Positions 11,860 through 34,780 of a stretch of 64,000 bases of DNA are shown here, piece after piece; the first letter of the stretch is position 1; each line of letters starts with the position of its first letter. This DNA is from Isoetes taiwanensis (lineage: Eukaryota; Streptophyta; Lycopodiopsida; Isoetales; Isoetaceae). The stretch spans positions 1,827,932-1,891,931 of the forward strand of contig JAJEKV010000083.1 of the NCBI GenBank assembly GCA_021234155.1, given 5' to 3'. Position numbers and translations under genes: made by a program. The notes below the pieces were generated by a model. It searched no databases and was not told the origin of the DNA. It saw only the letters and a program-made list of their open reading frames with translations.

Positions 11860-12442
11860 TTAATTGAATGATGGTTGAAGTCCTGTGATAAAATCCATGC
11901 TTACCACTTCCCACTTTGCATTCGACACTGCTAAAGGTTCTAAGGCTCCATGGATTCGAAGCTGCTCTGCCTTGGTCTGCTGGCACAATTGGCATTCTCG
12001 AATATATTTGGCTATCTGTTTCTTCATTCCCGGCCAGAAATAGCTACTTCGAATCTTGAAATACGTCCATAAACCCCGCATGCCCGGCTATTGGGATGTT
12101 GTGTGTGTCATGAAGAATTAACTTCCTTACACCTGACGATTCGGGCACACACAACTTATCTTTATGGTACAACAGGTTGCCTTCCTTCCTATAATGTTTG
12201 AAGGCTTCCCGTTCCTTATCTGTTCTAGCCTCCTTAGAGAGGCTTGCCCATACCTCCTTGAAATCACCATCAGATGGCAATGTCTTCTCAATTTTCTTGC
12301 CATGATACCCACTCGAAAGAGTTGATATGGCGTTACAATGTGTTCTCGTCTCAAGGGGACTTCTAGAGAGAGCATCAGCAACCACGTTCAACTTACCCGG
12401 CTTATAAGCAATCTCGAAATCATACTCTTCAAGGAATTCCAT
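11860..12442 (-). pseudogene. RNase H end and integrase amino half of element 1
   Basis: From 12442 the frame gives the end of RNase H ('VVADALSR') and then the integrase zinc-binding H2C2 module: '[13 protein letters not shown]' near 12120, and C-x-x-C at about 11994-11983 in a second frame after a shift near 12060. The catalytic core begins ('VVSMDFITGL', holding the first core aspartate) but stops at 11860. The other two catalytic acidic residues and any chromodomain are absent. The enzyme would have joined element cDNA to host DNA. Confidence 0.85.
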
Positions 12443-12586
12443 CCATCTCCTTTGCCTTAAATTGAGGAGTGGTTGGGTAAAAATGTATTAGAGGCTCTGG
12501 TGATCAGTATCTAACTGAAATTTCCTTCCAAGCAAATAATGCCTCCAAATACGAAGAGCTCTCACAATAGCTAGAAGTTCCTGATC
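12443..12586 (-). pseudogene. RNase H segment of element 1, left of the nested insertion
   Basis: On the minus strand, 12586 to 12490 encodes the RNase H run 'DQELLAIVRALRIWRHYLL' and then 'LDTDHQSL', followed by a stop. The matching upstream half ends at about 13182 on the other side of the 595-bp insertion. Confidence 0.8.
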
Positions 12587-13181
12587 AGGGATAGGTTCAA
12601 TACGATGTATGTTTTATACGGAATACGTATGAATTGTATGATACGGCACATATTTGCCGTTATAAAACGTAAAAAATACGGCAAAAAAATTCGGGCCGGA
12701 AGATTTTTCGTAATGTGCCCGAAAAACGGAGCTTTGAAAGCGTCTGCTGAAAAGCCCACGCGATATCTGTGAAAGCAAGGAAAACCGCTACGCTGAACGC
12801 AAAAAAGCGTCACGCTGAACCTTTTCATCTTTAGCGTGCTGAGAAGTATTTTCGCGATATCGCCATTGGAAGAATAAAAAAAAAAAAAATACAGTTTAAT
12901 TTTTTTTTACAGACGTCGCTGGTTACAGTATCACAGACGCCGTAAAATACTTTCACGTCACATCGCGGTCTGAAGGTTCCACCGTTTTTTTTTTTATGTC
13001 TGTGAGTTTTCGTTTACAGCGTCTGTAAAAACTTTCGCCGTCGCTTTTCCGCGAAGCTTTCAGCGTCGCAAAAATTTTTTTTCCTAAGGTTTAAATATCG
13101 CTAAATAGTATTTTATTAAAAAATATTATTTTTTACTTTATCGTCGAAATTTGAATTTTATGCGTCTGGTAACCTATCCCT
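12587..13181. mobile_element. 595-bp TIR element nested in RNase H (MULE-like MITE)
   Basis: The ends are exact 11-bp inverted repeats, AGGGATAGGTT at 12587 and AACCTATCCCT at 13171-13181. The flanks 'ttcctgatc' (12578-12586) and 'ctcctcgatc' (13184-13193) are an imperfect ~9-10 bp target duplication. The RNase H coding sequence becomes continuous when the insert is removed. The interior is non-coding, with T/A runs, CGTAAAA/TACGG words and 'ctgtgaaagc'-type motifs. Duplication length favours a Mutator-like element over hAT (8 bp), but the duplication has diverged. Confidence 0.75.
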
Positions 13182-14457
13182 CGCTCCTCGATCATGGGTT
13201 GGATAACGCTGCTCGGCGTCGTTCAACTTCTTAGAATCATAGGCGACTACCCTTCCTTCTTGCATAAGGACTCCACCTGTTGCTAGCGTATTTGCATCAG
13301 TTGCTACTAGCTTGTCCTTATCTGGATCCGGCACAATTAACACAGGTGATGTTGTTAAGGCTTCCTTGAGCTTTTCAAATGAACCTTGAACACTTTCTAG
13401 CCAATGTGTTCTCCAATCTTTCACCTTAACATTCTTAGTGAGGTCCGATAAGGGGGACGCCCACTTAGCGAAGTCCTTTACGAACTTCCTATAGTATCCT
13501 GCCAGACCTAGAAAGCTCCTCACTTCTGCCACGTTCTTTGGAGCTGGCCAATCAACTACTGCTTCAATCTTTACGGGGTCGGTAGAGATCCCTTCTGTTG
13601 ATGTCACGTGGCCCAAGTACTCCACTCTTTCGGTGGCAAAGTGGCATTGGGAGAGCTTCCCATACAACCGATGCCGTCTCAACTTCTCCAACACTCTTCT
13701 CAATTGCTGACAATGATCTTCAGTGGACTTGCTGTAGACTAGGATGTCGTCGAAGAATACAATGACAAACTCATCTAAGAACTCCCTGAAGATGTCATTC
13801 ATGAGACGCATGAAAGTTGCCGGGGCATTCGATAAGCCAAAGGGCATTACCGTAAACTCGAAATGCTCGTACCGCATTCTGAAGGCGGTCTTATGGATAT
13901 CTTCTTCCTTTATCCTTATTTAGTGGTAACCTGACCTTAAGTCAATCTTAGAGAAAACTTTCGCTCCTTGGAGCTGATCCATCAAATCATCTGCCCTTGG
14001 CAGAGCATACTTATTCTTTTTTTTTCTGCTTGTTAAGCTGACGATAATCTATGCACATTCTTAGACTCCCATCTTTCTTCTTCACGAAGAGTATGGGTGC
14101 TCCAAAAGGAGACACACTTGCTCTAATAAATCCAAGGTCAAGCAATTCCTGCAGCTGCTTCTTGAGCTCAATCAACTCCGGGGTGCTCATTCTGTAAGGT
14201 GCCTTGCTGGTAGGCTTAGCATCTGGAGCTAATGTGATTTCACACTCTACACCCCTATAAGGTGGTAGCTGACGGATTTGATCCGAAAATACATCATTGA
14301 ACTCCCTAATGAGCCTTGCTACTGGCTTTGGCAACTGATTCCCACTTAGGTCACTTCCCTTCTCTTTACTTGGTTCAATTGCCTCTAACCTCAGAATATA
14401 ATCCACCTTATTTCTTACTATACTTTTTCTTAGCCGTTTCATAGAAATGCACTGCAT
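13182..14457 (-). pseudogene. Reverse transcriptase and RNase H amino part of element 1
   Basis: Two frames, 14457-14011 and 13877-13182, carry the RT domain: '[17 protein letters not shown]' and '[10 protein letters not shown]', then '[16 protein letters not shown]' and the catalytic 'FFDDILVYS' with the aspartate pair at about 13751-13746. The start of RNase H follows ('DATGGVL'-like region and 'YPTHD'). A run of T on the + strand (14017-14026) causes a frameshift after the 'YRQLNK' motif, and an in-frame TAA interrupts the gap near 13920. The tyrosine of YxDD is phenylalanine here, a substitution common in plant Ty3 elements. Confidence 0.9.
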
Positions 14458-14483: not shown

Positions 14484-14798
14484 CTATGAATCTGTTGCCG
14501 TCTGGCGCCTCATGGAGATCTCGTTGCGCTCACAGTCAATCATCGCTTTAGCTGGCTTTAGGAACTTCATTCCTACTATAAGGTCATACTTTCCAATATC
14601 CATGACCTCTGCCCCCATCGGCCACTTGCTTCCACTAAGATCTACGTCAAGCGTGATCCTCCTCCCCTTAGTGTGGCGAATGGCTCCGCTGGCCATGCTA
14701 ACTGGCCTTGGCTTTGACTTCAAGACTTTATTCTTCATTAGGGCAGATAGCCTAGGAGAGGCAAAGTTGTGGGAGCTACCTGTATCTATCAAGACTAG
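14484..14798 (-). pseudogene. Aspartic protease of element 1
   Basis: The frame opens with 'MIDTGSSHNFASPRL', the D-T-G active-site loop of retroelement aspartic proteases. About 60 residues on it has 'YDLIVGMKFL', corresponding to the conserved I-L-G-M-x-W/F-L element. It follows gag directly and precedes reverse transcriptase, as expected in a gag-pol polyprotein. Its role would be to cleave the polyprotein. Confidence 0.85.
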
Positions 14799-16242
14799 TT
14801 ATGGGCTGCTATCTATGATTCCCTCAGACGCAATGACTGTGGACTGATTTTCAACATCACCTGACTCAATAGCTGCACAAATGTGGCACTCACCATCTAT
14901 GAAATCTTGGGATTCCTGCTGGTCATCCCCTTCGTCGTCTCCTTCGGTTGGTGACTCCCAATCTGCAAGCTCTGCCAAGGCTGCCTGCATGACGAATGGA
15001 CAATCGTGCGTTCGGTGCCCTGGCTGGAAGCACCTAAAGCACAACTTCTTTTCAATGCATTCCTGCCTCTTTTCCTTTGGGATGCTGTCTAAAAGGCGCT
15101 TGAGCGAACTGCCCCCTGATCCATTTTGTGGCCTACGGTCTCCAAAGGGCTTTCCCTGAGCTTTCCCTTCATGTTGGCCTACGGCTGGGATAGTTGCTGA
15201 TTGCTTATTCTGATACTGCCCTGTTGTTTTACCCTTGAATGGTAACTGTTTCTGCCCTGGAGTTACTGGTGCTTCTTCCAAACTCAAAGCCTTGTCCTCG
15301 GCTTCCCCGACTGTCCTTGGGTTGATTGCTCGAACTAGTCTTTTGATGTTGCTGTTCAACCCTTCAATGTACTCGTCCACCGCTTGCCTTTCAGAGATCC
15401 TGGGGACATTGAGCCTGAGTCTCATGAATTCCTCTGTGTAGTTGGCTACTGATAGATTCCCCTGGTCTAGCCTATAGAACTACTGGATCTGCCTACTAGT
15501 GTGTGATCTTGGCACATAATGTTTTCGAAAAGCCTTGCTGAAGGTCTTGAATTTCTTCTCAGCTTATTGGACTTCGCGTACCCTTTCCACCATATTCTTG
15601 CTGGCCCTATTAAGTTGGTTGTAGCAACCTTCCTTATATCTTTGTCTTTCATGCCATAAGAATTACGAAACTCTTCCATTTCATCCAGCCAAGCTTCTGC
15701 CTCCATGCCTGACCTGTCTTTCTCTAAAAACTGACCCAACTTCCTAGTCTTCTATACATTGCTCATAGCACTATCCACTTTCTTCTGATAGTCATCTGTC
15801 TTCCTTGCCTTGGTCCTTACCTGTGATGTATCGGACTCACTCTCTGAGCTAGAACTGTCTTGGCTGCCAGAAGTGTCTGATGAGCTGGAGCTAGATGGTG
15901 TTGGGCTCTTTCTGCTTCTCCTTTTTCTCTTCTTGTCTCTGACATTTCCCTGATTGTCTTCCCTTCTGGCTGTGGAGCCTCCTCAATGCCTTGGGCAAGT
16001 AGTGGTGGTGGAGGTGGTGGTGCTGGTCCATATTCCTGAGCGTTCATCAATGGGGTTGTCTAGTGAATCAACTGGTGCATCTGGTTCCTCATTTGCGTGA
16101 GTCTTGCATTAATTGTTTCCACTGACATTTCTTCATAGTTATCATCTTATTCACGCCCAAACAAGTGTCTAGGTACCCATTGGTGCTGCTGGCCCTGGCC
16201 TTGAGACCCTGAGCCGATGTTCCTGGTTGCAGTATTAGTCAT
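14799..16242 (-). pseudogene. Gag of element 1, with zinc knuckle
   Basis: The probable start is ATG at 16242. The amino part is Q/G/P-rich ('PAPPPPPPLL' near 16020). The capsid-type core includes 'AEAWLDEMEEF' and 'ARIWWKGY' (15690-15590), typical of Ty3 gag. The carboxy part has a C-x2-C-x4-H-x4-C zinc knuckle, 'CFRCFQPGHRTHDC', at about 15040-15000. Stops near 16150 and 15770 and frame changes near 15440 make it non-functional. Gag packages the element RNA in cytoplasmic particles. Confidence 0.85.
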
Positions 16243-16456: not shown

Positions 16457-17965
16457 TCATCTTCGGTGCCCCTTCATCGATTTGAAAAAGTTCTTGACAT
16501 CCCTGAGGCGTAGTCCTTTGCCGACGTTCCACAAGATGTTCCTAGAAGACCCCCCCATTTGGGGTGCAAGGAGTTCTAGTGTCGTTGCCGCCACTACCGT
16601 CAATGTTGCGTCCCTGAGGTGGCCCCTAACAAAGTTGAGGCAGTAAAGTGCCATGGATCTCTTAAAGAGGATGATATGATCCGTTACGTGGTCTAGTCTG
16701 GCGTGCTGCCCAAAGCCAGAGAGTGCTATGAGGAGCGCCACCGACTCTTCTCCTCGTGGGCTGAACTCCTTGTGAAAAACTATCATCTGCCCTTGGCTGA
16801 GGGCTGGAAGATAGTATCGGAGTGCCTTACCCTTTCCTATGGCCTTCGAACCTGTGCCCCTTCTTTGAGCTGCTTTGCCGTAGACGTCTAATGCCAAGAG
16901 GTCTTTATGGTCCCTCCACATGGTAGTTGCGCTCTCCAGGTTGATGCTACTGGATGCCTCCCGCATACTCCTGGAACGAACTGTTCGGCTAGAGCTTGGG
17001 CCTCTTCCTGGTTTACAATCTGCTTTGTATTTGTTGAAACTCCTCCTCTAGGATGATTGGTTCCTGTTGCCGATACATCTCCCTTATCTGCTCATAGGCT
17101 GCTATATCTGACATTGTCTCCCCGGCGCAAGAGTGTCGCTCTGCTAGCTCCCTTGGGATTTCCTGATAGGAATAGTCGATGAAGTCACTGTGCTGCTCCT
17201 TTGCCATCAAGCCTAAGAGCTCGTCGATTCTAAGTCCTTCTTCTTGGCAGTAAGGAAGGTTGAGGATGTCGTTTGCCAAGATGTACTCCTCTCCATCGAT
17301 GACTATTGGTGATAGGGTTGTGATGCCGATTGGTGGCTCATAGACCCGCCTGATCTCATCATCATGCCTGGCTATGCGCCTCTCGATCCTCATCGCCTCT
17401 CTGCTTTCCCAACCTGGGTTTTCTTCCCCTAGTTGCTCGTAGTCTTGCTCAATTTGCAGTGCTGGAGTCCCTGATGTCATGCCATGGTACATGTACTCTG
17501 AGGACTCGATCTCGTGAATGTGGCTTTATTCCCTTCGAGTGTCGAGTGGCGCTAGATCCAAAGGCTGAATTGAGGGCTCACCCACCCTATTGACTTACTT
17601 ATACTGCATGAATAACGCAAGGGCTGCATGTGCTGAGAGGTAACTATGCCTATTGTGCTTGCAGGTCATGTAGTCGGGCATGGTTCTAGTCCTATCCCAC
17701 AGCTTGTTCTTGCCCTTGGATCCTCCCCCTAAGGCTTGGCTAAGCAAATCTAGGGATACCCATTTCCCTCCCTAGGCGGCAAGCTAACTTCCCAGGGTAG
17801 GATCTGCTGATCATATTGGCAAATGATGTCAGTGTAGAAAGGGGTTCTGGTCAATGTTGCATGGAGATCAAAAAGATGGTCGAATACATGGAAGGCTTGT
17901 TCAGCAGTAAAATCACGGATATGGTTGCCAGCATCATACCATCTAACAAAGTTACTGGGCGCCAT
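16457..17965 (-). pseudogene. Unknown second ORF of element 1 (between H3-like ORF and gag)
   Basis: Three pieces in the order 17965-17750, ~17758-17013 and 16966-16457 appear to be one protein of about 480-500 codons, broken by one shift near 17756, two in-frame TAA codons (about 17600 and 17528) and changes near 17010. The middle part is acidic and helical ('EEFQQIQ', 'EQIREMYRQQEP'). There is no zinc knuckle, D-T-G, signal peptide or membrane helix, so it is neither a second gag nor an obvious envelope. The last ~130 residues start with a G/K-rich basic patch and continue as two or three amphipathic helices. They might be a divergent histone fold, but the match is too weak to assert. No known family recognised. 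Confidence 0.5.
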
Positions 17966-18272
17966 TGAGCAGAGGTAGGTATAGAAAATGGCTTGGAAAG
18001 ATTGATGGAAGCTTGGAAAATTGCCTAAGATGACAAGAGCAGTTTTGGTGAAGGAAAAATGGCAAATGAGGCTCCTTTTATAGACAATGGTCTGCCTCGG
18101 GTTCTGTGCACAAGGGTTCTTGATGGAAGAGACTTTTGTTCTAAGGCTATATATGGATATCCAACTGAGCTAGCATGAAGTGCAAATCTAAGCAAAACAA
18201 AGCAAGAAACACTACATGGCAGTTTGTTGGGTCCAATTCGGTCAATCCAGGCTAAAAAAGGTCAACCCGGGT

Positions 18273-18325
18273 CGCTTCGCGCAAATAGGCTCTGCGTTGC
18301 GAACGCAGGGCGGTTTTGCGCGGAT
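18273..18325. repeat. CG-rich hairpin A downstream of the H3-like ORF
   Basis: Outer arms TTCGCGCAAA and TTTTGCGCGGA enclose an inner perfect stem CTGCGTTGCGAACGCAG. A near-identical hairpin lies at 18477-18525. They sit in the ~790-bp non-coding gap between the H3-like frame and the next frame, on the 3' side of the H3-like frame. Confidence 0.75.
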
Positions 18326-18476
18326 CAACCCGGTTTGGCTGATTTGGGAGATGATTAGTCATTTATAGGGGTTATAAGATGCTAACATGCTTATTTCGGT
18401 AGATTCTAATCTAGCTAGCAACTTGTTTCAAGCAAAGTTGACATCTAAAAGTGTCAAATTGGGCTAATCGAGTTGG

Positions 18477-18525
18477 TTCGCGCAAATAGGCTCTGCGTTG
18501 CGAACGCAGACGCATTTTGCGCGGA
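18477..18525. repeat. CG-rich hairpin B downstream of the H3-like ORF
   Basis: Same design as hairpin A: outer TTCGCGCAAA / TTTTGCGCGGA and inner CTGCGTTGCGAACGCAG, with 'acgcat' in place of 'ggcgg' between them. Flanking sequence also matches hairpin A in part (gac/atc-'aacccggttt' type), so the unit was duplicated. Confidence 0.75.
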
Positions 18526-18755
18526 CCGACCCCGTTTCGCCGATTTTTGAGCCAAAATTGATTTCTTTGTGCTGGAACCTATGGCGTTTAACCTATTACA
18601 AGCATTTTAAGCTTTATACAAAAAATTATACTACAATCTAACTTAATTACATTTTCATATCATGATACGATCAAATTACTGAGAAAAGAACTTATATATA
18701 TGAAAAGAAAGTCAAGTACATTGAAAAACTTTATCTAATTACAAAATTTGAGGCC

Positions 18756-19929
18756 TCAGGGTCTCTCTTTGTGGATTATCCGCGCCAAGTGCAGTGCAGG
18801 TCCTTGGGCATAACGGTTACCCGTTTGGTGTGGATGGCGCAAAGGTTCCCTTCTTCGAAGAGCTGAATTAGCTCTGCCTCTGCTGCCTCCTGCAGGGCCC
18901 GGGTGGTTAGTGGTGTCACCCTATAATCAATCCAGAACTCCTGCGTGATCTCCCGGAGGAGCCGCTCAAAGGGCGCCTTCCGGATCAGGAGATTAGTACA
19001 CTGTTGAAAGTGCCTAATCTCCCAGAAAACTCTGGCGTGCCGAGAGTTAGGTCCGTGGTGGACCTTCTTCGGCTTCTCCGGCCTGGGTGGCGGCAGCTTC
19101 GGCTGGTTCTTCGGCCTGCCTCCCTTAACGTACTTCTTCACATTCTGCTTACAGTACCAATCATTATACCTCGTCCAGGAACGGGGTACTCCTGGTACAC
19201 CTTCATCCGGCGTTTGAATTCGTGATCCTGCTGGAGCGCGAATTCACGCTCACCCACCTTCTGCTTCTTCATTACCTTATGTGGCTTAGGCCACTTAGGG
19301 TAGGGTGGGCATGCGTTGGGGTCTGAAGATTCCCCAACGTCTTGGGCCTGTTCCTCCTCTTCATCTTCCTTCTCCTCTTTCCCATCTCCTTCCTCCTCTT
19401 CTTCGTCCTCCTCCTCGCGCGAGCGAGGTTCTTCAATGGTGACTGTTCCCCGTGGCTTGTCCCTCCTCGCCTTCTTCCTCCTCTCTTTTTCCTTCTGCTC
19501 CCTCTCCCTTTTCTTCCTGGCCGCCCTTTTCTCCAGCCACTCCTTCACTTTCTCCTTCCCCTTCTTCTTTTTGCTTGAAGAAGGGGTTGCCTGCTAGTCC
19601 TGTTGGGGCTGGTCTTGCTGCTGCTGCTCGTCGTGGGTCTCCTCCTCCCGATGCCCCTCTTGGTTCTCCTCCTCTGCATTAAACAGAGGGCCAAGGTGAC
19701 GGGTCTCATCTGTTCGCTGAGTGCCTCCCGACGAGGAGCTGCTACTGCTGCTAGGGGGCCCCTCCTGCGATGCATGGAAGGTTTCGTCCGTCGAGGACGA
19801 CGACTCCTCCTCTGGCCTCGGCCGGAGGTGCTCTGATATCTGCTTGCCATGGCCACCAGCTGCTGCTGCCGCCATCGAAGGTGAGCTCCTTGGGCCAGTC
19901 TTTCTGTAGGTTTGTTTCGTTCTCACCAT
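18756..19929 (-). pseudogene. Histone H3-like protein encoded by element 1
   Basis: ATG at 19929 begins 'MVRTKQTYRKTGP', a near copy of the H3 tail that keeps R2, T3, K4, Q5, T6, R8 and K9. Then come a Ser/Glu-rich linker, a lysine/arginine-rich stretch (about 19548-19450) and a Glu/Asp-rich stretch (about 19430-19340). From about 19042 the H3 fold follows: '[16 protein letters not shown]' (alpha-N/alpha-1), '[13 protein letters not shown]', '[20 protein letters not shown]' (alpha-2), and '[13 protein letters not shown]' (loop 2/alpha-3). Loop 1 has the canonical H3 length, unlike most CENH3. About 390 codons, versus 136 for H3. Lesions: in-frame TAG at 19594, a one-base shift near 19165, and a 5-bp duplication near 18796 that moves the stop from about 18756 to 18776. 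It is the first frame after the primer-binding site. A normal product would enter the nucleus and could pair with H4 or H3, but that is inference. Confidence 0.88.
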
Positions 19930-20504: not shown

Positions 20505-20516
20505 GCTCTGATACCA
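20505..20516 (-). promoter_or_regulatory. Primer-binding site of element 1 (initiator tRNA-Met)
   Basis: On the minus strand this reads TGGTATCAGAGC, complementary to the 3' end of plant initiator tRNA-Met, one base inside the LTR. It fixes the element's orientation as minus. Confidence 0.92.
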
Positions 20517-20517
20517 T

Positions 20518-22114
20518 TGTGATGCTCCCTACTAAATATACGGCTCCCAGCCGCATACTCCATAGGAAATCCCCCATCCGGTCCTTCGACCGCAGGGGCC
20601 CTCCGTCTATCCCGTACTCTGGGATCACCGTAGTGCGGGAAGGGGACACGAAGGTGTCTTGCGCGCCCTTTCCTGGCTCCTATCACAGTGGAAGCATAAA
20701 CATCGTCAGAACTAGCAATAATAATACATCAAGCTACCTCGAAGGGTAGCTCATCCACATATCCATAACTGCAAAGAAGATAATCATATACCATAAAACA
20801 TGAGAGCTCCTACCCGTGGCTCCGACTCATAAGGAGGTCGACTAACTGGATAGGTCTCAAGATAGAGCAGACCGAGTCATAACAATGGCGGGGCTGGCTG
20901 TAGACAATGGCTAGGGTTGACCACTCCATCCGCCCCTCCTGTGTGCATACTTTGAAGAATGAGCTAGATCGGGCTCTGACATGACTCTAGCCTTCCGGAT
21001 ACGCAATCCCATGGTATCACCTATCGGGTACTCCAGGTTGCATCTCCCTGGTCCGTCGAGGCAGGAAGGGTTGCATCTCCCCTTCCCGGGGTCTAGAGGT
21101 TCCACGGGCGGCTAGAGAATCGGGGCGACACACGATTTTTCCCCGACTTAACCTCCCGAAACAAGAGCCAAGCCAACACTTGCAACTCTTGAGAGGCAGG
21201 GTGACACCACTGCCCCAGGGTGTCGGACCCATGCCCAGCCCACACGAAGTGACCGACCATAAGCCTAGCCCACTATGGGATCCCCTGTAGTCACGCTCAG
21301 CAGGGATCCTCCCTCCGCATTGCCTCTAGCCCCGTTGTGTGGTGTTGACGCATAATGATAGAAACTAAAGGGTCTAACTAGGAGCATTACTAAGTAAGGC
21401 TACTAGGTCTCTACCCCCCTTCCCAATACAAGAGGAGCAAACATGATCAACCATCATCACATCCCATCATATCATGGTAAACATCATAAGAACATCTTAA
21501 CCTAATCATACATATCTAACTTACAGTTAGGGTTCCATGATTAGGGTTCAAGTTGTTCAACAAGGGTTCTAGGATGGCTCTACTCTAGATACAACATACA
21601 GACCCATCTGGAGTGCTAACTTCCAGATGAACTACTATGAACTCTACTCCACCTACCTGCTCCAGAAGCACTCCCTCCTAATCCTGGCGTCTCCATGCTC
21701 CTTGACGTGGTCAAAGTCGTGCTCCCTCCAAGATCGTGCACACACTTCGGGGGCTGCTACACCAGGCTATGCTACGACGAACGATGCTCGAAATGGGGTT
21801 TCGAGTGCGTAGATGAGTCTCCAGGTGTTAGGGTCAGGAAAGGAGGTCTAGGGTTAGGGTTTGGGCCAATATAGGTTAGGGTCCACATGGGATGCCACGT
21901 GGCACCAATGGGGAGGGGTCGCGTGGCGGTTTGCCCAATAGGATAAGGCCATGTGGAAATGGGCCTTATTCTAAGGTTATCTAAGTTAAGCATTTAACTT
22001 AGATGTGCACCCATTACCACTTTCTAAGGTATACAAGGCTACAAAGGTAGACTTGTATAGTGACAGGTCCAGGAATATACGTATTTATGGCGTATGTTCC
22101 CCTGGAACGTCACA
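20518..22114 (-). repeat. 5' LTR of element 1 (1597 bp)
   Basis: It starts TGTGATGCTCCC (plus-strand left edge) and ends CCTGGAACGTCACA at 22114. The termini are the TG...CA inverted ends extended to TGTGA/TCACA. Blocks such as 'ccactccatccgcccctcct' (20920-20940) and 'ctaccccccttcccaataca' (21411-21430) recur in the same order in both LTRs of element 2, so the three LTRs are one family. The other LTR of element 1 is missing. Confidence 0.88.
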
Positions 22115-23310: not shown

Positions 23311-23514
23311 GCCATCCAAATCTATGTTGTAGAGCACCATCAGATACATGTGACCACTATTGTACAATAACAGATAAAGTTCTGTTAAGCAAAGGTAATA
23401 AGCAGACTAAAGAAACTTACATCTATGTGAATAATTGATTTACCCACAATGTCTTATGGGCAGCAAGAGATTTACGTCACAGATCAAATCACAACCATCT
23501 ATATCTATAGTTTC

Positions 23515-25183
23515 TGTGACGTCCCCTACTCATATACGGTGCACTCACCGTATACAAACAGGAGTTCATCCCCCATACCAGCTCCAACTGATACAGGGCC
23601 CTCCACGTGTCACTGCAACCTTGAGTTCCAGTGGGAAGAATGAAGGGGTCATTTTACCCTGTCTCCCTTCAGGGCCTACCTAGCTGCGGAAGCGTAAACA
23701 TACATGTCAGTAGTACATACATCAACATCATATGACCATCACGAAGGATGGTCCTCCACATATCTGCATAGACAAAGATCAGCACATCACATAGGGAATC
23801 CTACCCAAGGCTCAGACACAGGGATGGACTGACAAGCTTGGGTCTCCAGAGGTCATTGCAGACAGAATTCATGGCAATGGATTTGGCTGGCATAAGAACA
23901 TGGCATTGGGTTGTCCACTCCATCCGCCCCTCCTGTGCACACTTTGCAGAGTAGGTTGACAAGTGTTGGGACCTGACTGTAGCCCGCCGGATGCATAGCC
24001 GAGGGGGCTATATCCTGGGTTACATCTCCCCAGTTCCGATGGGGCAGGTAGGGATCTCTCCCTCCAGAGATCTACATGCTGACTCAAGGTGACTAGAGGG
24101 CCACTGCCCTTATTCGACTGAACCCACTGGAAGGTGAACCCCACCCCACGGGTGTCGAGCCCATGCCTTGCCCGCACTCAGTGGCAAGCCATTAGACCTA
24201 GTCACAATGATCCCCGGTAGACTTTACACACCAGAGGGATCGTTCAAGAGTCAGAACATGAACCTCCTTCTTAGCCAGTCTGGCCCCTTCACCCACAACC
24301 AGGTGTGGTTCTTGTACACAGGCCGAATCTATAGTGTGCTAGAGAGGCTAATCTAGGAGCATCTACTACCAAGCTTTAGGTCTCTACCCCCCTTCCCAAT
24401 ACAAGGAGTTCATAGAGATACATCATCCACATACATCATAAGAGAACTAAAGAACAAGATCTAATCTATATCATAGAGTTAGGTTCTTTAGTTAGAGTCT
24501 GCTATCTAGAGATCTAGAAGGCTGCTATGGGCAATTTAATAGGCTAAACCTACTGATTCAATGACTAAAAGATGGTTTAAGCTATTAAATTGCCTAACTA
24601 CCTGATCCTTGAGTTCCTCCTCCTGACCTGAGTTCGACCATCCTGCTGAAATGCTCGAATCAAGGGAAACTAATGATGCAATTCCCTTAGACAGAGTCTG
24701 GGAGGCGGTTTTGGCTCTTGAGGCAGCCAAAACAGAGCTCTAAAACCCTAGAAACGAAAAATGGGCAAGTTAGGGTTTCCCTTCCTAAATAGACATGGGG
24801 GTGGCTAGGGTTTCCAATTATCCCCTTTAGGCATGTGGGATAATTGGGAATGGGCCCACTTGCCTTTAATGGCTAGGTGGCAAAATGTGCCCACATGGAA
24901 AGGTGTGCCCACATTAATGTGCATATTGGTAAATGTGCACATTAATTGCACACTTGGGTATGGCCCACTTGGCATAAAGTGTCCACATGGGAAAATGTGC
25001 ACCTAGATAAATGTGCACATGGTTAAATGTGCACATTAATAAATGCACACTCCTTGCAAGTTGCCCCCTAGGGGCTACCCACCTGGCTACACGTCGGCGT
25101 ACACGTCAGTCGGGGTGGCGTGTACGCGTGACGAGGCAGTACAGTATACGTCCTGGGACCGTATACTGTGCTGGAACGTCACA
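23515..25183 (-). repeat. 3' LTR of element 2 (left copy, 1669 bp)
   Basis: TGTGACGTCCCC at the left to GGAACGTCACA at the right. A hairpin TATACGGTG-cact-CACCGTATA lies at 23534-23555, and another, CAGTATACG...CCGTATACTG, near the right end (25142-25169). It has an array of AAATGTGCAC-type words at 24870-25050. It contains a ~37-bp piece near 25082-25122 that is missing from the right copy. Confidence 0.92.
24870..25050 (-). promoter_or_regulatory. Array of AAATGTGCACAT-type words in the LTR upstream region
   Basis: At least eight variants of 'aaatgtgc(a/c)cac' or 'gtgcacatt' are spaced 12-35 bp apart. On the minus strand this lies near the start of the LTR, where the U3 promoter/enhancer should be. 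The same array occurs at 34500-34685. It may bind a transcription factor; that is inference. Confidence 0.5.
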
Positions 25184-25196
25184 TTCTCCCCACCTT
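25184..25196 (-). promoter_or_regulatory. Polypurine tract of element 2
   Basis: On the minus strand it reads AAGGTGGGGAGAA immediately before the 3' LTR, a typical plus-strand DNA primer. A second near-copy (ccaaggtggggagac) sits about 40 bp further inside (25226-25240). Confidence 0.85.
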
Positions 25197-25240
25197 GAAA
25201 TGATGCTGTCCGCATCATCGTGGGTCTCCCCACCTTGGAA

Positions 25241-26312
25241 TCTTCCTAACCTGCAATCAACCTGATGCATATGATATACTACTATAATACTTACATATAT
25301 TTATTAAGATTACCTTAAGGTAATACTTTTAAATCATTATTACGCCATTACATTATCAACTAACTTGTCAATTCGTAACTTCTATTAAACAAGGTACTTA
25401 TTAGTCTCCGTTATCACAACATTTAGTTTATCACAATTTAACACTTTCATATACAATTATTACTTAAGGTACTCTTCATTCCTTGCAACACATTCCAACA
25501 AAATTTGTGTTGCAAGTCTTCGCACCTTAAATCCTGCATTAATTTTACAATATCTATAATTACATACTTACTATCTTAATTATTAGAATTACTCTAAGGT
25601 AATGTTTAAGACATTACTGTACTATTTCATTACCCAATTAACTTATCACTTCATAACTTAATCCACGCAAAGTAATTATTAACCTTACTTAATACAACAT
25701 TTAAGTTTATCAAAGTTTATCAATTTCATACAAAATTTACACTTCTAAGGTACTCTTCATCCCTTGCAACATTATTGGCCTGCAGGTCGACACTACCTAT
25801 TATTAATTATTAATAAAATTTTGGTTATATGGTGACCACCCCACCTATTATGGTTATATGGTGACCACCCCACAATTATATTTACTCTAAGCTTTGCAAT
25901 ATTTAATGACTTTTAGATCGCGATTATTTAAACAATAACCCTGATTTAGACCTATTGTTACATAGACAAGGTTTTTAATTATCATACACAAGAATTAGAT
26001 GTGCTTCTTATTCTCTTCCTTGGGTCCTGCATTACCCTTGGAAGTATATCCCTAAGATGCACTTAAATATATCTGAATTCTATTTTCTATTTATATTTAT
26101 AAGGACCCCGAGGTCATATAGCTATCCTTTGAAGGAATTGCATCCTTGCGAAGGATTAATTAACATGCTACCTCACATTACCGTTGTTATTTAACTTATT
26201 TCCCTATGATACATATACGTACAACAATTTCTATCCAGTTATTAGGATCTATATTTAACTTATCAACAAGACACATTAAAGCTTATAATGCATGCGCACA
26301 CCTTACCTAAGG
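25241..26312 (-). other. Element 2 interior, AT-rich non-coding
   Basis: There is no reading frame of note. A local duplication of 'attatggttatatggtgaccaccccac' type lies at 25830-25875. Segments 25,290-25,460 and 25,570-25,720 resemble each other ('aaggtaat', 'acttatcac/aacttgtc', 'ttagtttatca'), so an older internal duplication is likely. Confidence 0.45.
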
Positions 26313-29300
26313 CTAGAACGCATCCACCCATTGAGCCGGCGTCGAGTAATTTGGAGATGACTTGGTCGTTGCATTGCTCCCATACTTTTGCTCCACTTCA
26401 TTGGTGTAGTTAGCTACTACGTCAGTCTTGCCGTTGAAGGCCTCCTGAGCACTAAGGTATCTATCTATCTTACGCTCTATTCGCTTCGGCCATTGCCGGA
26501 GTGAACTCTATTCTATGGGTCAGTCAATTCGATGCAAGTACGTTCAATCATAAGATTGAGCCCTCCCACTTTCTTCGAAAAGAAAATGGTCCTGCACCCC
26601 TTCAATGACATTGTACACAACGTCATATCTATTCTCTCCCCTTAAGAGGTTATACGTTTCTTACTTAGCGCATTACTTTACTAGCCTTAGCTAACATATA
26701 TAACCATCTAAGATGGATGCACATATTATGTTATCATTTATTTCAATATAGTTATGGGTTACCTACTTAGTTAGAACGATTCTAAACCACAAGGTTTTGT
26801 CATGACGACAATTCCTTTTGCCTCAAAAGACTATTTGATTACTATAATTCTTATTTTAGATGTACCTTACATGTATTATTCTTTTATATTCTAGAGATTC
26901 CCCCTTTCTTAGTTAGTTAAACTCTTGGAATATTCCTACCAATCGAATTGATGCCATCGTAACAAGTTAGCCGGACTTGTTAGATTACTTCTTTTCTTTC
27001 GGTTGGATTATTCTTTGGAGGCACTAGATTTATACATGGTCAACAATTATCCTAGCAATGAATCCTTCTTAGTGAGGAGATCAATCTCACCAAGTGGTTT
27101 CAATACGTTGGATGTCTGTTAACAATCGTGTATAATTATAGTTACTCCTATGCATTCCTTCCCAATCTTGACGCTTAGCTCAATATTGGGGCGATCCTTT
27201 CAGCGAGAATATCTGGAAATGCCTTCTAATCCCAATATGGATGTTACCATCCATACATCTAACCTACTAGGCCCCATGGCCTTAGATCCTCGAGCTTGCT
27301 AGAAGCTCATCCACTCGTTGCCTGCTTGAAGTAGCAAGGTAATGTTCTCCCGAGTCGCTCGATACTTCAGTCTCCTTGACGGTGGATCCTCTTTGATGTA
27401 GAGGTTGACTTTGTTCGTTAGAAGCCTCTCATTGCTGCTGGCTTGATGGTGTAGTTGATCACTTGAAATCTTTATGCCGCTTTTTAAAAGCCTGAAGGTG
27501 GCGCCGTTGAAGAAGATCTTTCATCTTGAACTCTTTGTCTTGGCAGCTAAAGGACGACTCTGTATTCGATATTGTTTCTTGACTCCATCAACGTCTCATA
27601 CGTCAAGTCCTCTTGCCGTTATCGTGTTGCTCGAAGAGTGTTGACGATGTTGATTGCTTCACCCCTGCAATTGTCTGACATCCCTTCCTTTGATCTGTTA
27701 CGCTATGGGAGGGAAGGAATAACAAGGGAACTATATATGCAAAACATATATCTTACATAATTACAATTACTACTAGAGCTATTAGGTCCCCCTTGTGCCT
27801 CCCTTCGAGTTGCGCGCCTACTCCTTGGCAATGTCATCGGTGTTCCTCCTGGTGCAATGGTGTTGATGATCTATATCCTCCTATTTGTACGTCAGCTCAT
27901 ACTCTGGGGTAACTTGTTGATATACTTGGGCCCTCCGATGTTTGTCGGCTATGGCACAACACGCTTTGCATCACATTCTAACTAAAGGTGTGCTGGTCGT
28001 TGATGCTTCGACATTTCGGTCTGCTTCCTGATCCTGTTCTCGGGCGGTAATTATTCCCCCCTTCATGATACTTGAAGCTATTTGAAGGCGTCTCTTGAGG
28101 TCGGCTTGATTCCTTTGGCTATACTCCTCTAGAGTTGTTCTCTTACGCAGCTTGTTCTTTGAATCGTCCATCCTTGGGTTCACCAAGTTGCATGCAAGTC
28201 CATGCAAGTCATCGGCTCGCCTCGCCTCACCTAGTTGCTTCTCCATCGAAGCTTCCAAACTTCCTTGTTTGATCCCCTCGATCACACCCGATCACATGGC
28301 TTGGGCGTTGTCACGTTCCACAATTAACTCTGCCGTCTTCTTGTCTTGAGGTACCTTCCGGTGGCTTTGATTGTGCTCGTCGGTTTGATCCTCCCCTGTT
28401 GTCTCTAGGGAGCTCGCGTGGGCCTAAGTCGCTGCTAGCACTTCTCGCCTTCGGTTCGACCTTTGTCCCTCTATGCATGTCGGTCTCTCGGCAAGTAAGC
28501 ATCATGGCTCTCCTCCCTCGCCGGCTATGTTGTCGGGGTGATGGATCCCTATATCTACGCAGCTTGACCCTTGAGTTGAAGAAGTACACGCCTTAGATAT
28601 ATTCTTGTCGTTGAATAGCCTGGCTATTATCTTGAACTCTCTTTTTGTTGAAGTTGCTTCAGTTGCTATCCTTGTCGTTAAGGTGTCGAATGCTTCTACC
28701 TTGGGCGTTTGAGGTCCCACATGCCCGAGATAATGATCGGCTCCTTCTCTTCTACTTCATGGTAGGAGTACCGTGAAAGCCATCACCTAGTTGTTGAAGG
28801 CATATCTCCTCGTCGCAGTGCCTTTTGTAAGTGCATCTCCATCCAATACACGCGTGTCATAGCGCATCACCCTATATTACCACAAGGTGGAATTATGGTC
28901 GTCGAGATGTTGCCTTCTTAGTTGGCTCGTTGATGTCGTCGTTCCTCCCTCTATTGTTGAGGCCACTTCGTGTCATAAGTTCGCCAAGTCGCCCCACCGC
29001 TACAAGAGGTAGTGTTGCGCCCTGACGATATCCTGGTGCCGTTAATGATCTTCACACGATCGGCGTTGTCTCTTATCCCGACATTGTGCTTTGAGCGGTC
29101 TTCTACTTGAGGGCACTTCCGGCATTTGGAGTCGAAGGTTTGCTTGGCCTCCTCGGTCGCTCTCCTCAGACTTGCTCTTCCATTTTGATCTTGGGCTATA
29201 GTTGTGCTTCCTCGCTTCCTCCTTTGGTAGTCAAGGAAGGAGCTTCCCCGATCTAAGCTTAAATCCATAAAACATGACTCTAAACTCATGTTTCTCCACT

Positions 29301-31070
29301 ATATATGTGGACACCCTAGATATACAATAGACATATACGCATTTACATTGGGATTTTAATTCATCCACTTTTTCAAAACAACTACGAAGATCTACTTAAG
29401 CGTTTGATTCTTCGGTGTTGTCGCATCTTCTTCATTCTCGTTGACTCGGGATTCCTCGAGACGCTACTACTATTGTTGAGCTTCATGTCTGATCCGGCTT
29501 CGTCCACCCCCGCCATAAGAGTGTTCGCCGATGTGATCCCTTTGAGAAAGATGCTCCTCGCAATGTGTATGTCCGTCGTGAGGAATGCGGTGACCGCCAA
29601 CGTCCCTACATGCGTGTGTGTCGCTGCAAGGTTGCCGGTGCGTGCCTTTGATCGCTTTGAGTAGGATCACCGGGCATTGCGCGCTTAGGCATTCTTGAAT
29701 GTCTTCAAAGCTCGAGATTGCGGCCGTGAGGGCATTGTGATTCCTTCAGTTGAATTTCCGAAAGCGACTCACGCTGCTTGGGCTTTGCTTCATTCGAGGT
29801 GCCTCTCCTGGCTCCGGAAGTGTGGTCATCTCCATTGCCCTACCATGGCTCCCTTCTAGTCGCCTTTGCGTGATTTGTACTTCTTTGGCTAGGTCGTCTC
29901 CTCCGTCACTTGGGTCTTATCCATTCGAGTCTCGCACTCCTTAGTCGACATAGTAAAGTTGTCCTTCCTTTGGTTTCTAGGTGTTTTCGGGTCCATAATT
30001 CTTGTTCGAGCGGAATATTCTCCTCCTTGATCTTGCCTCTAATGCTGATATAGGCCTTCAAGTTGGAGATGTTCCTTCCCCGATATCGTCTCCTCCCCTC
30101 GTGGTTCGGCCGCCGGTGCAAGGGAGCTGGAAGCTCATCTTGGTCAGCCTTAGGTGCTTTGTGGTTGCCTAGCTTGGTTACTCCTTTTGTTGACGTTGCA
30201 TGACATTCGCTTGAGCTGCTGGGCTGCAAGGTCGTGGTGATCTTCCCTCCGGTTTCTATACGCCCACCGTGTCGCCATTACTTCTCTCCTCGAAAGATTA
30301 TGCCCTCGGCCCTAGCTCGTGTGATGCTAACGTGGCATCGATGTCCAACGCCTCTTCCTGGCCAGTATTTTGCTGCTTTGGCGTTCTTCCATTTGAAACT
30401 CATGTGCGTCGAGTTGGTGAAGGCGTCGAGATCCTCTTCCTGATGTGAGCTCGTGGACGTGGTAGCCGGGAGGTTGACATCTAGAAAAAAAGAAAAAAAA
30501 AAAAATCTTGATGCCTTTGGTTACCAAATACTCTTCCCATTTGATGAAGATTAATGATAGGCCGGTGGTGTCCTATTCTACTCGTTTGTCAATTGAGGTG
30601 TTCGTCGTTGTGCTTCCTTCTCTTGGGTCTGCCTTTTCGGTCTCCTCTCCTTATCTGTCTGTACATTGGCTAGGTCTTCGATGTAAGAAGTTGCGCCTCT
30701 AGCTATTCTCAGGCTCGCCCTCAGACTTGAAAAGCAACGCCAGATATTCTAGAGTCTAAGGGTCTACTTGAAGGGCTCTCCTACAACATTCCTGGGCTCT
30801 ATAAGCAAGCAAGATGGTCGAGCAAAGATTATCGAGACATATCTATAATCTCCAAGTCTATGGACATTAGGACGTGTGGTATGGCATGATATGAGGGTTG
30901 TTTTGAAAGGCCCTCATGGTGTTTGAGGTATACTCTAAGGTCCTAGCAAAGTTTGTTTGGGGGGGGAGTCCAATCTCTACACATGGAGTGGCTTGGGCAG
31001 CTCTAGACTCTAGGTCCCTTCTAGGTATCCTGGCAATTGGGAGTGTCGATGTGGCGGCTATATAAGTCAA
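26313..31070 (-). pseudogene. Degenerate internal coding region of element 2, unrecognised
   Basis: Several minus-strand pieces are protein-like but broken by frequent stops: 31070-30867, 29670-29470, 29289-28951 (has C-x-x-C and many K/R), 28589-28311 and 28285-27971 (helical, 'LKRRLQIASSIMKGG'), and 26470-26313 ('EQKYGSNATTKSSP'). Basic and charged composition would suit a gag-like protein, but no zinc knuckle or capsid motif is secure. I looked for Y/F-x-D-D, D-T-G and H2C2 motifs and found none. Confidence 0.4.
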
Positions 31071-31464
31071 ACTCTATTAGAAGGGCACAGAATTAGGTCA
31101 AGGTTTATGCCTTTGGCTCGGCGGCAGGTGATGTACAAACAGTTGGACTTGGGTTGCTATCTTTGAGGTCTAGATGACTATAACAAAGGGGTGTTCCCGG
31201 CACTTCTATCTAGGAGTAAGGCATTAGCTTCGGGTGCCGAGCAATACTTGTGAGGTACTAATGGGGTATGCTTCTATTTACAAATAAACCACGCTTTGGA
31301 AAAACAATTCAAGGGTTTGAGCTATTTTGGTCATTTTGAGCTGGGTTTTGACATTTCTAGCCTAATTTGAGGTCATAATTGCATTCTAGGCTGTCTAATG
31401 GTCCTATTGCAACAAATTTCAGGCGATTTGGAGCTCTGTAGCTCAAGTTATGGAGGTTCAAAGT

Positions 31465-31745
31465 TTGGAGGTCTCACACATTGCGCCCAGACCAATAATG
31501 AACTTTTCATTTTTCTCGTCTGGCGACGTGAGACATTGGCTCTAAATGGGTTAAACTTGTCCAATTTGGGTGATATAAGGGTCTAATCCTGCTTATCTCG
31601 TCGAGTTAGGCAGAATGGACCCCTTATTTGGTCGATTTGGAGCACTTTTGGGCACTTTTGGGGCATGGTCTCACAACAAGGTCTCACACGTTGCGCCCAG
31701 ACCGATAATGAACTTTTCATTTTCTGTCCTGGCGCGACGTGTGAG
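31465..31745. repeat. Two CG-rich hairpins beside the H3-like relic of element 2
   Basis: At 31680-31745 the arms GTCTCACACGTTGCGCCCAG and CTGGCGCGACGTGTGAGAC face each other across ~27 bases. A shorter variant stands at 31469-31533. They lie 3' of the H3-like relic, as the hairpins do in element 1. Confidence 0.75.
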
Positions 31746-31888
31746 ACATCCTCTCAAATTGGCCTAGGATGTCTGTTTTGACTAAAACAAAAGCTAAAAC
31801 TTACTAACTCAACTTAATTAAGTAACTTTATACACTTATAATTTACTCTAAAACACTTTGTATTAAACAAATTTTATCATTTACGAAA

Positions 31889-32138
31889 TTAATAATGCTC
31901 AGCTTTGATGTAGCTGGCAAGCTGCATGTCCTTCTTCATTAGTGTTACTCTCTTTGGCGGTAATCGCGGGTGTGCTGTTGAGTCTTCAAAATGTTGGACC
32001 CGCCGCTGCTCACGCTTCTTGACCCTTGGCCTCCTGCTCTCGTTCTGCCCTCTCCTCTTCTTGTTTCCTTCGGCCTCCTTGGCCTCTGGCTGTTTCGCCT
32101 TGTCGAGGAAGTCGAGCGGTCTGTTTGGTGCGCATCAT
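31889..32138 (-). pseudogene. Histone H3-like relic of element 2
   Basis: From ATG 32138 (a second ATG follows) the frame reads 'MMRTKQTARLPRQG', which matches the H3 tail from R2 to R8, followed by a Q/E/R/K-rich linker and TGA at 32010. In the next frame the sequence continues with 'FEDS' and then 'KRVTLMKKDMQLA', the H3 loop 2/alpha-3 end, stopping with TAA at 31889. The whole alpha-N to alpha-2 region is missing, so the relic is only ~83 codons plus a frameshift. Its place, the first frame after the primer-binding site, equals that of the H3-like ORF in element 1. The tail is closer to canonical H3 (A7 kept) than in element 1, but K9 is lost. Confidence 0.82.
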
Positions 32139-32280
32139 GTCGATCGGAGTCTTGGTGTCTATCAAGATGTTGTCTCTATCTAGCTTAAGGGTCTTGGTTC
32201 TAAGTCTAAGGCTTGACCATTAATATTATCTAACATTATTAAAGCTTAAATCTAATTAAGAATTATAATTTAAACACAAA

Positions 32281-32355
32281 CGATGCCCGCCCTCAGTGGT
32301 TGGCATGGGGGGGTTTGAGGGGGTTCAACCCTGTGGGTGGGAGGTTCAATTTTTG
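32281..32355 (+). repeat. Possible tRNA-like (SINE-type) fragment
   Basis: 'cagtggttggcatgg' at 32294 resembles a polymerase III A box, and 'aggttcaattt' at 32342 a degraded B box. It is weaker than the SINE at 38.2 kb and may be chance. Confidence 0.3.
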
Positions 32356-32434
32356 CTACTGTGGAAATTCTTTTAAGATGAGATTCAAATAGATTGAAAA
32401 GCTAGACTAATCTAGCTAACTACTAGGCTAAAAT

Positions 32435-32600
32435 TCGAATTACTAAGTTACTTTTCTGGAATATTCGAATTACTAAGTTACTTTTCTGAAATTCTTGACT
32501 TTTTAAACTGTTTTGAGATCAATGTCGCAAAACTGTTTTGAGATCAATGTCGCAAAACTGTTTTGAGATCAATGTCGCAAAACTGTTTTGAGATCAATGT
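32435..32600. repeat. Short tandem repeats upstream of H3-like relic
   Basis: A ~30-bp unit 'cgaattactaagttactttt' is doubled at about 32435-32490. A 25-bp unit 'aaactgttttgagatcaatg' + 'tcgca' repeats about four times to 32600, running directly into the next CG-rich hairpin. Confidence 0.8.
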
Positions 32601-33144: not shown

Positions 33145-33156
33145 GCTCTGATACCA
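33145..33156 (-). promoter_or_regulatory. Primer-binding site of element 2 (initiator tRNA-Met)
   Basis: TGGTATCAGAGC on the minus strand, one base from the LTR edge, identical to that of element 1. Confidence 0.92.
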
Positions 33157-33157
33157 C

Positions 33158-34775
33158 TGTGACGTCCCCTACTCATATACGGTGCACTCACCGTATATAA
33201 ACAGGAGTTCATCCCCCATACTAGCTCCAACTGATACAGGGCCCTCCACGTGTCACTGCAACCTTGAGTTCCAGTGGGAAGAATGAAGGGGTCATTTTAC
33301 CCTGTCTCCCTTCAGGGCCTACCTAGCTGCGGAAGCGTAAACATACATGTCAGTAGTACATACATCAACATCATATGACCATCACGAAGGATGGTCCTCC
33401 ACATATCTGCATAGACAAAGATCAGCACATCACATAGGGAATCCTACCCAAGGCTCGCATTACGGGGATGGACTGACAAGCTTGGGTCTCCGTAGAGGTC
33501 ATTGCGCATGCCGAATTCATGGCAATGGATTTGGCCGGGTATAAGAACATGGCATTGGGTTGTCCACTCCATCCGTCCCTCCTCCCTGCACACTTTGCGG
33601 AGTAGGTTGAAAAGTGTTTGACCTTTCAGAGTCGTCGGATGCATAGGCGAGGGGCTATATCCCGGGTTACATCTCCCCGCCCGATGGGGCGTAGGGATCT
33701 CTCCCTCCAGATCTCTACATGCCGACTCAAGGTGACTAGAGGGCCACCGCCCTTATTATTCGAAACCCACCTGAAGGTGAACCCCACCCCCACGGTGTGA
33801 GCCCATGCCTTGCCCGCACTCGGTGGCAAGCCATTAGACCTAGTCACAATGATCCCGGTAGACCTTACACACGGAGGGATCGTTCAAGAGTCGAAACACG
33901 AACCTCCTTCTTAGCCGGGCCCGCCCTTCACCCACAACAGTGTGGTTCTTGTACACAAAGCGAATCTATAGTGTGCTAGAGAGGCTAATCTAGGAGCATC
34001 TACTACCAAGCTTTAGGTCTCTACCCCTTCCCAATACAAGGAGTTCATAGAGATACATCATCCACATACATCATAAGAGAACTAAAGAGCAAGATCTAAT
34101 CTATATCATAGAGTTAGGTTCTTTAGTTAGAGTCTGCTATCTAGAGATCTAGAAGGCTGCTATGGGCAATTTAATAGGCTAAACCTACTGATTCAATGAC
34201 TAAATGGTTTAAGCTATTAAATTGCCTAACTACCTGATCCTTGAGTTCCTCCTCCTGACCTGAGTTCGACCATCCCGCTGAAATGCTCGAATCAAGGGAA
34301 ACTAATGATGCAATTCTCTGCATTTAGTTTGGGAGGCTTTTTGGCTCTTGAGGCAGCCAAAACAGAGCTCTAAAACCCTAGAAACGAAAAATGGGCAAGT
34401 TAGGGTTTCCCTTCCTAAATAGACATGGGGGTGGCTAGGGTTTCCAATTATCCCCTTTAGGCATGTGGGATAATTGGGAATGGGCCCACTTGCCTTTAAT
34501 GGCTAGGTGGCAAAATGTGCCCACATGGAAAGGTGTGCCCACATTAATGTGCATATTGGTAAATGTGTACATTAATTGCACACTTGGGTATGGCCCACTT
34601 GGCATAAAGTGTCCACATGGATAAATGTGCACCTAGATAAATGTGCACATGGTTAAATGTGCACATTAATAAATGCACACTCCTTGCAAGTTGCCCCCTA
34701 GGGCTACCCACCTGTACGCGTGACGAGGCAGTACAGTATACGTCCTGGGACCGTATACTATGCTGGAACGTCACA
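33158..34775 (-). repeat. 5' LTR of element 2 (right copy, 1618 bp)
   Basis: Same ends as the left LTR. Long blocks are identical, but short patches (for example 33453-33535, 33590-33650 and 33915-33950) differ sharply. The ~37-bp piece at 25082-25122 of the left copy is absent at about 34714. Confidence 0.92.
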
Positions 34776-34780
34776 GTTTC

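Follow-up and report, generated by a model that had tools for sequence, protein, structure and literature searches.

A histone H3-like gene between the primer-binding site and gag in a chromovirus-type LTR retrotransposon lineage of Isoetes taiwanensis

RESULTS

Element A carries an H3-like gene upstream of gag

The window analyzed here is a stretch of 64,000 nucleotides of contig JAJEKV010000083.1 in the Isoetes taiwanensis assembly GCA_021234155.1. Two LTR retrotransposons, designated A and B, were located on its minus strand, and copies A', B', C5 and C9 were found elsewhere in the genome. The parts of element A were as follows.

20518..22114, minus strand: 5' LTR with ends TGTGACGTTCCAG ... 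GCATCACA (86.4% end-to-end match to the 3' LTR of A', L017:3407-5050)
20505..20516, minus strand: primer-binding site TGGTATCAGAGC, directly after the 5' LTR (from the sequence)
18756..19929, minus strand: H3-like gene (disrupted by a single stop and two frame breaks)
19900..19929, minus strand: H3 tail start MVRTKQTYRK (one of only two over-threshold tail matches in the window)
19142..19899, minus strand: charged insert replacing most of the H3 tail (borders set by eye)
19073..19129, minus strand: linker VKGGRP...PPPRP (common to copies C5 and C9)
18797..19021, minus strand: histone fold EIRHFQ ... MPKDL (profile, alignment and structure model)
16457..17965, minus strand: ORF2, split into three open pieces (A' retains it, and C9 the last two pieces)
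14799..16242, minus strand: gag region containing a CCHC knuckle (all matches to gag-type Pfam models below the cut-off; several breaks)
14484..14792, minus strand: protease (PF08284, 1e-5)
13184..14457, minus strand: reverse transcriptase (RT) and first part of RNase H (Pfam and protein searches)
12591..13183, minus strand: foreign sequence interrupting RNase H (missing from copy A', L017)
11860..12590, minus strand: remaining RNase H and zinc-binding part of the integrase (rest of the 3' end lost)

The borders of the 5' LTR were confirmed because it matched the 3' LTR of A' from end to end, and the primer-binding site TGGTATCAGAGC is of a kind that we take to be the initiator tRNA-Met type. 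A preliminary description of this DNA had placed an H3-like gene in a Ty3/gypsy element, after the primer-binding site and ahead of gag, and both flanks were found in that arrangement (20516-20505 and 14799-16242). When the RT of element A was searched against a protein database, 6327 of 7992 scored candidates had E values of ≤1e-30; the best 120 of these 6327 exhibited 52 to 58% identity, none of them being close. Organisms were named for 21 of the 120, 19 of which were flowering plants and 2 of which were bacteria, the latter entries being likely contamination. Elsewhere in the window, the plus strand contained an F-box ORF at 45712-46488 (PF12937, 1.7e-6) as well as a copia-type gag ORF at 57891-59411 (PF14223, 2.7e-18).

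The H3-like coding sequence ran on the minus strand as had been described, with the tail at 19929 and the four named motifs (LLIRK, ALQEAAEA, NLCAIH and KRVTVMPKD) all inside a single open piece of 121 amino acids (19141-18776). The profile search that had been proposed as a check gave a clear histone match for this piece (PF00125 [Histone], E value of 3.4e-24, 85.9 bits; cut-off, 26.4 bits), and solved H3 chains in the PDB matched it at ~1e-25. The tail piece (19929-19594) had no match in a Pfam search up to an E value of 1. Over the 75 residues from EIRHFQ to MPKDL, the fold aligned with canonical H3 without a gap and at 61% identity, and the differences clustered in loop 1 and where helix 2 begins. 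A predicted model of the H3-like piece contained four helices in the order of H3 (34-48, 55-69, 77-105 and 112-119), with a mean pLDDT of 72.6 and a pTM of 0.44. The best PDB matches of this model were chains of nucleosome structures with 46 to 59% identity, a TM of ~0.5 over the query and an rmsd of at least 4.6; their chain letters are the ones usual for H3.

Three lesions were detected, as many as had been claimed. An in-frame stop is present at 19594-19596, one frame break lies between the insert and the linker at about 19190-19141, and a second lies near 18800, after which the remaining frame terminates at 18756. The stop and the two frame breaks indicated that this copy is dead.

A second reading frame, ORF2, sits between the H3-like gene and gag and was absent from the preliminary description. 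Corresponding frames were located at L022:3515-5034 in A' and at L026:290-1212 in C9, and the level of identity of ORF2 of A and A' to that of C9 was 36 to 42%. No Pfam match was obtained for ORF2. A mobile-domain ORF of the Ogre/Tat type was rejected, as PF10536 was not matched by the ORF2 pieces of element A up to an E value of 1 or by those of C9 up to 0.1. Direct repeats at 18255-18350 and 18456-18551, each with an inverted-repeat core CTGCGTTGCGAACGCAG, were observed between the H3-like gene and ORF2, and both have matches in A'. A TATA-like CTATAAAAGG was also observed at 18074-18083 (minus strand), ~110 bases ahead of the ORF2 ATG, and it looks as if ORF2 had a promoter of its own.

Element B retains both ends of an H3-like protein in the same slot

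33158..34775, minus strand: 5' LTR of element B (LTR comparison)
33145..33156, minus strand: primer-binding site TGGTATCAGAGC (from the sequence)
32109..32138, minus strand: H3 tail start MMRTKQTARL (probe score against shuffles)
31892..31954, minus strand: H3 C-terminus KRVTLMKKDMQLASYIKAEHY (PF00125, 0.0098, below the cut-off)
23515..25183, minus strand: 3' LTR (92% identity to the 5' LTR of the same element)
34776-34780 and 23510-23514: target duplication GAAAC, 5 bp

The hallmarks of an LTR element detected in B were two LTRs, a primer-binding site, a polypurine tract and a target duplication, while those in A were the 5' LTR and primer-binding site only. The LTR ends, primer-binding site and purine tract of B were the same as in the element A type, and the H3 pieces of B occupied the same slot as the H3-like gene of A. 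The central fold was missing, with 184 bases separating the tail start from the C-terminus. Depending on the query, tblastn gave E values of 0.33 to 1.9 for the tail alone and of 1.5e-4 to 0.06 for the C-terminus alone. The joint score of the two pieces was 92, which was reached by 0 of 1000 shuffles of the B interior (best score, 57) and by 0 of 150 shuffles of the whole window (best score, 53); in the whole window, nothing besides A and B scored above the threshold set for the tail or above that for the C-terminus. A chance match as the source of the H3 likeness was excluded by this shuffle test and by the Pfam and PDB matches.

No gag or pol was detectable in the interior of element B (25184-33157). 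A comparison of this interior with the gag and pol of element A gave nothing at 1e-3 and only weak matches at E values of ≤10, the best of which (0.001) consisted of the LTR end and primer-binding site. Elements B and B' give the impression of a family that is non-autonomous and partnered with A-like elements. Since both are missing the central fold, the product of this family could not be a complete H3. Over 19 codons, the synonymous test between A and B produced a pS of 0.84 and a pN of 0.21 (p = 1.8e-4); these values are biased because the codons were preselected for protein likeness, and they are not counted here as main evidence.

The H3-like gene recurs in other copies

The genome was sampled over 230 kb, comprising 23 stretches of 10 kb, of which the first 20 were picked blind to content and 3 were added later. 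LTRs of the A/B kind were present in 6 of the 23 stretches (L006, L007, L010, L013, L017 and L029). The slot was readable at four of these six loci, and an H3-like gene or its remains was present in all four (A', B', C5 and C9). At L007 and L029, the LTR had no primer-binding site behind it and the slot, lying elsewhere, was outside the count; the LTR likeness of L029 was limited to a 260-base patch at 69%. With elements A and B added, H3-like genes or remains were detected in 6 of 6 readable slots, all in sense. A one-off insertion, against which a search of other copies had been proposed in the preliminary description, was contradicted by the H3-like sequence or remains in five other elements (B, A', B', C5 and C9).

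Copy A' (contig 16, L017/L022) had 83 to 89% identity to element A from the H3 gene through RT. Its H3 fold matched PF00125 (3.1e-17, 63.4 bits), its H3 C-terminus reads MPKDLHLARRIRKERP, and the front of the gene was interrupted by another LTR of the same kind. The order of the remaining parts was H3 fold, ORF2, gag, pol, integrase chromodomain and 3' LTR, with frame breaks. Matches were obtained for the integrase core (PF00665, 1.1e-8) and for a chromodomain at the integrase C-terminus (PF00385, 3.2e-12; L017:2099-2557), and the 3' LTR was found with a polypurine tract next to it. The presence of pol with an integrase chromodomain up to the 3' LTR indicated that the lineage is that of a chromovirus. 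Element A is without its 3' end and A' without its 5' end; together they presented the chromovirus order gag-PR-RT-RNaseH-IN with a Ty3-type RT and, in full, the order LTR-PBS-H3-like-ORF2-gag-PR-RT-RH-IN.

The other copies were less complete. Copy B' (contig 12, L013/L025) had the short B form in a decayed state; it was below every H3 probe threshold and was placed solely by an 82.6% DNA match to B. Copy C5 (contig 5, L006) reads as LTR, primer-binding site, MARTKQTARV, insert, linker VEGGRSTKENTLKPPPKRL and EIRHFQ, followed by an insertion. The H3 part of C5 was matched by tblastn at 2.8e-4, and a Pfam search with its tail piece gave no match. Copy C9 (contig 9, L010/L024) reads as IARIKQTARV, linker VKGGRPTKENTLKPPPERP, a broken fold and KRVSCMPRDMKLSRK, with ORF2 following in L026; the H3 part was matched by tblastn at 9.4e-11, and the fold piece had a Pfam E value of 0.042, below the cut-off. 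Gag was not found past ORF2 of C9 or in L027 and L023, and the sequence past ORF2 appeared LINE-like by eye. L020 contains a related RT-RNase H fragment, and neither H3 nor gag was present in that 10-kb stretch; the fragment looks truncated but is nonetheless a piece lacking the gene. None of the six copies read had an intact H3-like gene.

A non-histone linker, VKGGRP...PPP, was common to A, C5 and C9, indicating that the gene was inherited as one unit. A host H3 pseudogene or a nested insertion was ruled out by the 6 of 6 readable slots. Chance landing of such a pseudogene, or of another transposon, in one element would account for a single case, but with every readable slot occupied in sense, and three sharing the linker, this explanation is scarcely credible.

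Constraint on the H3-like gene

Ratios of dN to dS were determined by the Nei-Gojobori method, leaving out codons at gaps and stops. Comparison of A with A' detected a ratio of 0.25 for the linker and fold (115 codons; pS, 0.194; pN, 0.055; p = 1.7e-4) and of 0.36 for the insert (66 codons; p = 0.019). The ratios for other parts of the same pair were 0.13 and 0.41 for ORF2, 0.12 for gag, 0.14 for PR, 0.19 for RT and 0.15 for RT-RH. Between C9 and C5, the ratio was 0.14 for the linker (66 codons; p = 2.8e-7) and 0.25 for the tail, the latter not being significant (19 codons; p = 0.053). Decay after insertion shifts all of these values towards 1.

Synonymous divergence along the A and A' elements varied from 0.12 to 0.42. 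The spacer behind the H3-like gene differed at 9.8% of positions (58 of 589 sites), while synonymous sites differed at 19 to 25%, and hence the neutral yardstick is uneven. In neutral simulations of the fold alone to the same identity, the frame stayed open in 592 of 3000 runs, and the observed share of mild changes was also reached in 203 of 3000. The fold alone was thus compatible with neutral drift in simulation. We read the whole as an H3-like gene that is constrained, somewhat less than gag and pol (0.12 to 0.19). ORF2 is, on these ratios, constrained between A and A'.

The proposal that the element had captured an H3 gene, in the sense of owning and keeping it, was supported by the ratio of 0.25 between A and A'. 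An H3 gene could also have been captured once and carried as a passenger without function, as is largely so for H3 in the hAT elements of one fungus. Functionless captured genes are common, every copy read here was broken, and the drift simulations of the fold were compatible with a passenger. The significant ratios for the linker and fold of A and A' and for the linker of C9 and C5 argue against this explanation, as does retention of the gene at one position by four groups that have diverged from one another (A, B, C5 and C9), and we regard a passenger as very unlikely. Overall, recurrence in the sampled copies and the dN/dS values indicated that a chromovirus lineage has carried the H3-like gene for a long time.

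The H3-like protein keeps the first residues of the tail and the contact residues of the fold

Tail starts were readable in four of the six copies as MVRTKQTYRK (A), MMRTKQTARL (B), MARTKQTARV (C5) and IARIKQTARV (C9), A' having lost the front of the gene and B' having it in decayed form. These four kept H3 residues 1 to 8 with the K4 context, with a change of T3 in C9. An equivalent of K9 was present in one of the four tails (A) and was replaced by L in B and by V in C5 and C9. The H3 tail of ~40 residues with K4, K9, K14, K27 and K36 was not found; instead, the first 8 to 10 residues were H3-like and were followed by the charged insert, which in element A is long, with runs of serine and of acidic and basic residues. 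The H3-like protein has no counterpart of the sites from K14 to K36.

The proteins of A and A' terminate in the H3 fold and H3 C-terminus. Residues C110, H113, R116 and D123 were retained in the folds of both copies and L126 and I130 in A' as well; we take these to be residues needed for the H3-H3' and H4 contacts. CENH3 proteins have a longer loop 1 and a diverged tail. Identity as a CENH3 was rejected, since loop 1 was of canonical length (gap-free over 75 residues) and the RTKQT tail was kept.

One explanation of this arrangement is that the H3-like first residues serve as a decoy that binds or draws off host readers of H3 residues 1 to 8, with the fold acting mainly as an anchor and nucleosomes not being required. 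This would fit the readable tail starts, that of B included despite its lost central fold. B lost its fold but not its tail and C-terminus, B' has the same short form in a decayed state, and the absence of the fold from both favors a role of the tail alone in that family. Against a decoy, the linker and fold were constrained too between A and A', and A' kept residues of the H3-H3' and C-terminal contacts, which would be needless for this purpose. A decoy is a somewhat unlikely explanation of the gene.

The integrase chromodomain of A' raises the alternative that the H3-like protein is a mark read by the element's own integrase, steering new copies to regions of old copies. By eye and in comparison with HP1, the aromatic cage of this chromodomain is missing its first and last residues, as in the group II chromodomains, for which no binding partner is given (PMC6317226). 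Self-targeting would also agree with the position of element A adjoining B in the window and with the LTR of the same kind that cuts A'. However, nested elements are common in plants and the chromodomain is known from A' alone, by sequence, and we consider this alternative quite unlikely. A related reading, in which a private H3 variant with an active-mark tail end and few silencing sites is placed on the element's own copies and the integrase chromodomain uses the resulting nucleosomes to recognize landing sites, is likewise unlikely.

Searches for related proteins

A protein search with the H3 piece produced 71 matches among 84 candidates, and a search of longer proteins produced 28 matches among 135 candidates. 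Four public proteins of 276 to 429 amino acids (P0074, P0076, P0079 and P0086), known from protein sequence alone, have a long charged stretch ahead of an H3 fold; P0076 (429 amino acids) has an intact MARTKQTARK tail as well. Scans of viral contigs with the 121-amino-acid piece and with an alignment (A1) gave 12 and 52 pattern stretches, respectively, and no relative.

DISCUSSION

Proposed role of the H3-like protein

The explanation that we favor, and consider probable, is that a chromovirus-type lineage owns an H3-like gene in the slot between the primer-binding site and gag and that the protein replaces host H3 on element DNA, blunting methylation-based silencing. Judged from the residues kept and lost, the role is most likely that of an H3 stand-in without most of the silencing-mark sites. 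The preliminary description had likewise proposed possible roles in nucleosome entry, insertion site choice or evasion of silencing. H3K9me2 is the mark used by plants on transposons (PMC9033089). For the H3 stand-in, the protein would have to be made and enter the nucleus, where it would pair with H4, form nucleosomes and be deposited on element DNA. An H3 that bears K4 and is poor in K9 and K27 could then hinder H3K9me2 while still reading as active chromatin. The K9 equivalent kept in element A speaks against loss of K9 as the point.

If an LTR element makes an H3-like protein, this would be a direct counter-move to silencing at the level of the nucleosome. Such an element would constitute a natural test of which parts of H3 are needed for silencing and would be a potential source of new H3 variants for hosts. 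Furthermore, the extra ORFs of plant retrotransposons are mostly of unknown identity, and here one has a readable identity.

Comparison with known systems

The preliminary description knew of no element with such a layout. Full-text literature searches, with few subscription papers and no preprints in their scope, listed no histone-bearing LTR element. On this scope, an H3-like extra 5' gene in a chromovirus appears to be new; extra 5' ORFs in plant elements are already known. In their LTRs, tRNA-Met-type primer-binding site, 5-bp target duplication (B), gag-PR-RT-RH-IN order and integrase chromodomain (A'), the elements described here resemble plant Ty3/gypsy chromoviruses. They also resemble the plant eORF-5'F elements of Neumann et al. 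2019 (PMC6317226), whose 5' part contains an additional forward ORF, and differ from the eORF elements described there in that the additional ORF encodes an H3-like protein. The most prominent eORF domains named in that text are the plant mobile domain, Transposase_28 and Athila ORF-1, no conserved domain is common to most elements of any lineage, and the word histone has a single occurrence there, about chromodomains (PMC6317226). Additional ORFs are also treated in PMC7264820. In orchids, there are Ty3/gypsy elements that bear an ORF for an m6A demethylase (2-ODD), and these are similar in that a plant gypsy lineage has acquired and kept an extra known domain; unlike the present elements, they have another domain and belong to another lineage, their structure being compared with Ogre (PMC9289625).

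Histones and H3 mimics also occur in viruses, examples being bracovirus H4 and tail mimics, and the present gene differs from these whole histones or short mimic tails in belonging to a retrotransposon and in having both H3 ends split by a charged insert. The histone doublets of Marseilleviridae (PMC5704553) likewise place a histone-like part in a selfish element.

The nearest precedent is provided by fungal hAT transposons with H3 sequence. In Dothideomycetes, H3-like sequence is present in many copies of a mobile element; 90% of 784 H3-like hAT copies in P. fijiensis are truncated and amplified copies are inactivated by RIP, and P. tritici-repentis has putatively functional H3-like copies close to the host gene (PMC6710886). 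Unlike hAT elements, which are DNA transposons with terminal inverted repeats and a transposase, the elements described here have LTRs, a primer-binding site and RT and carry a diverged protein composed of tail, insert, linker and fold.
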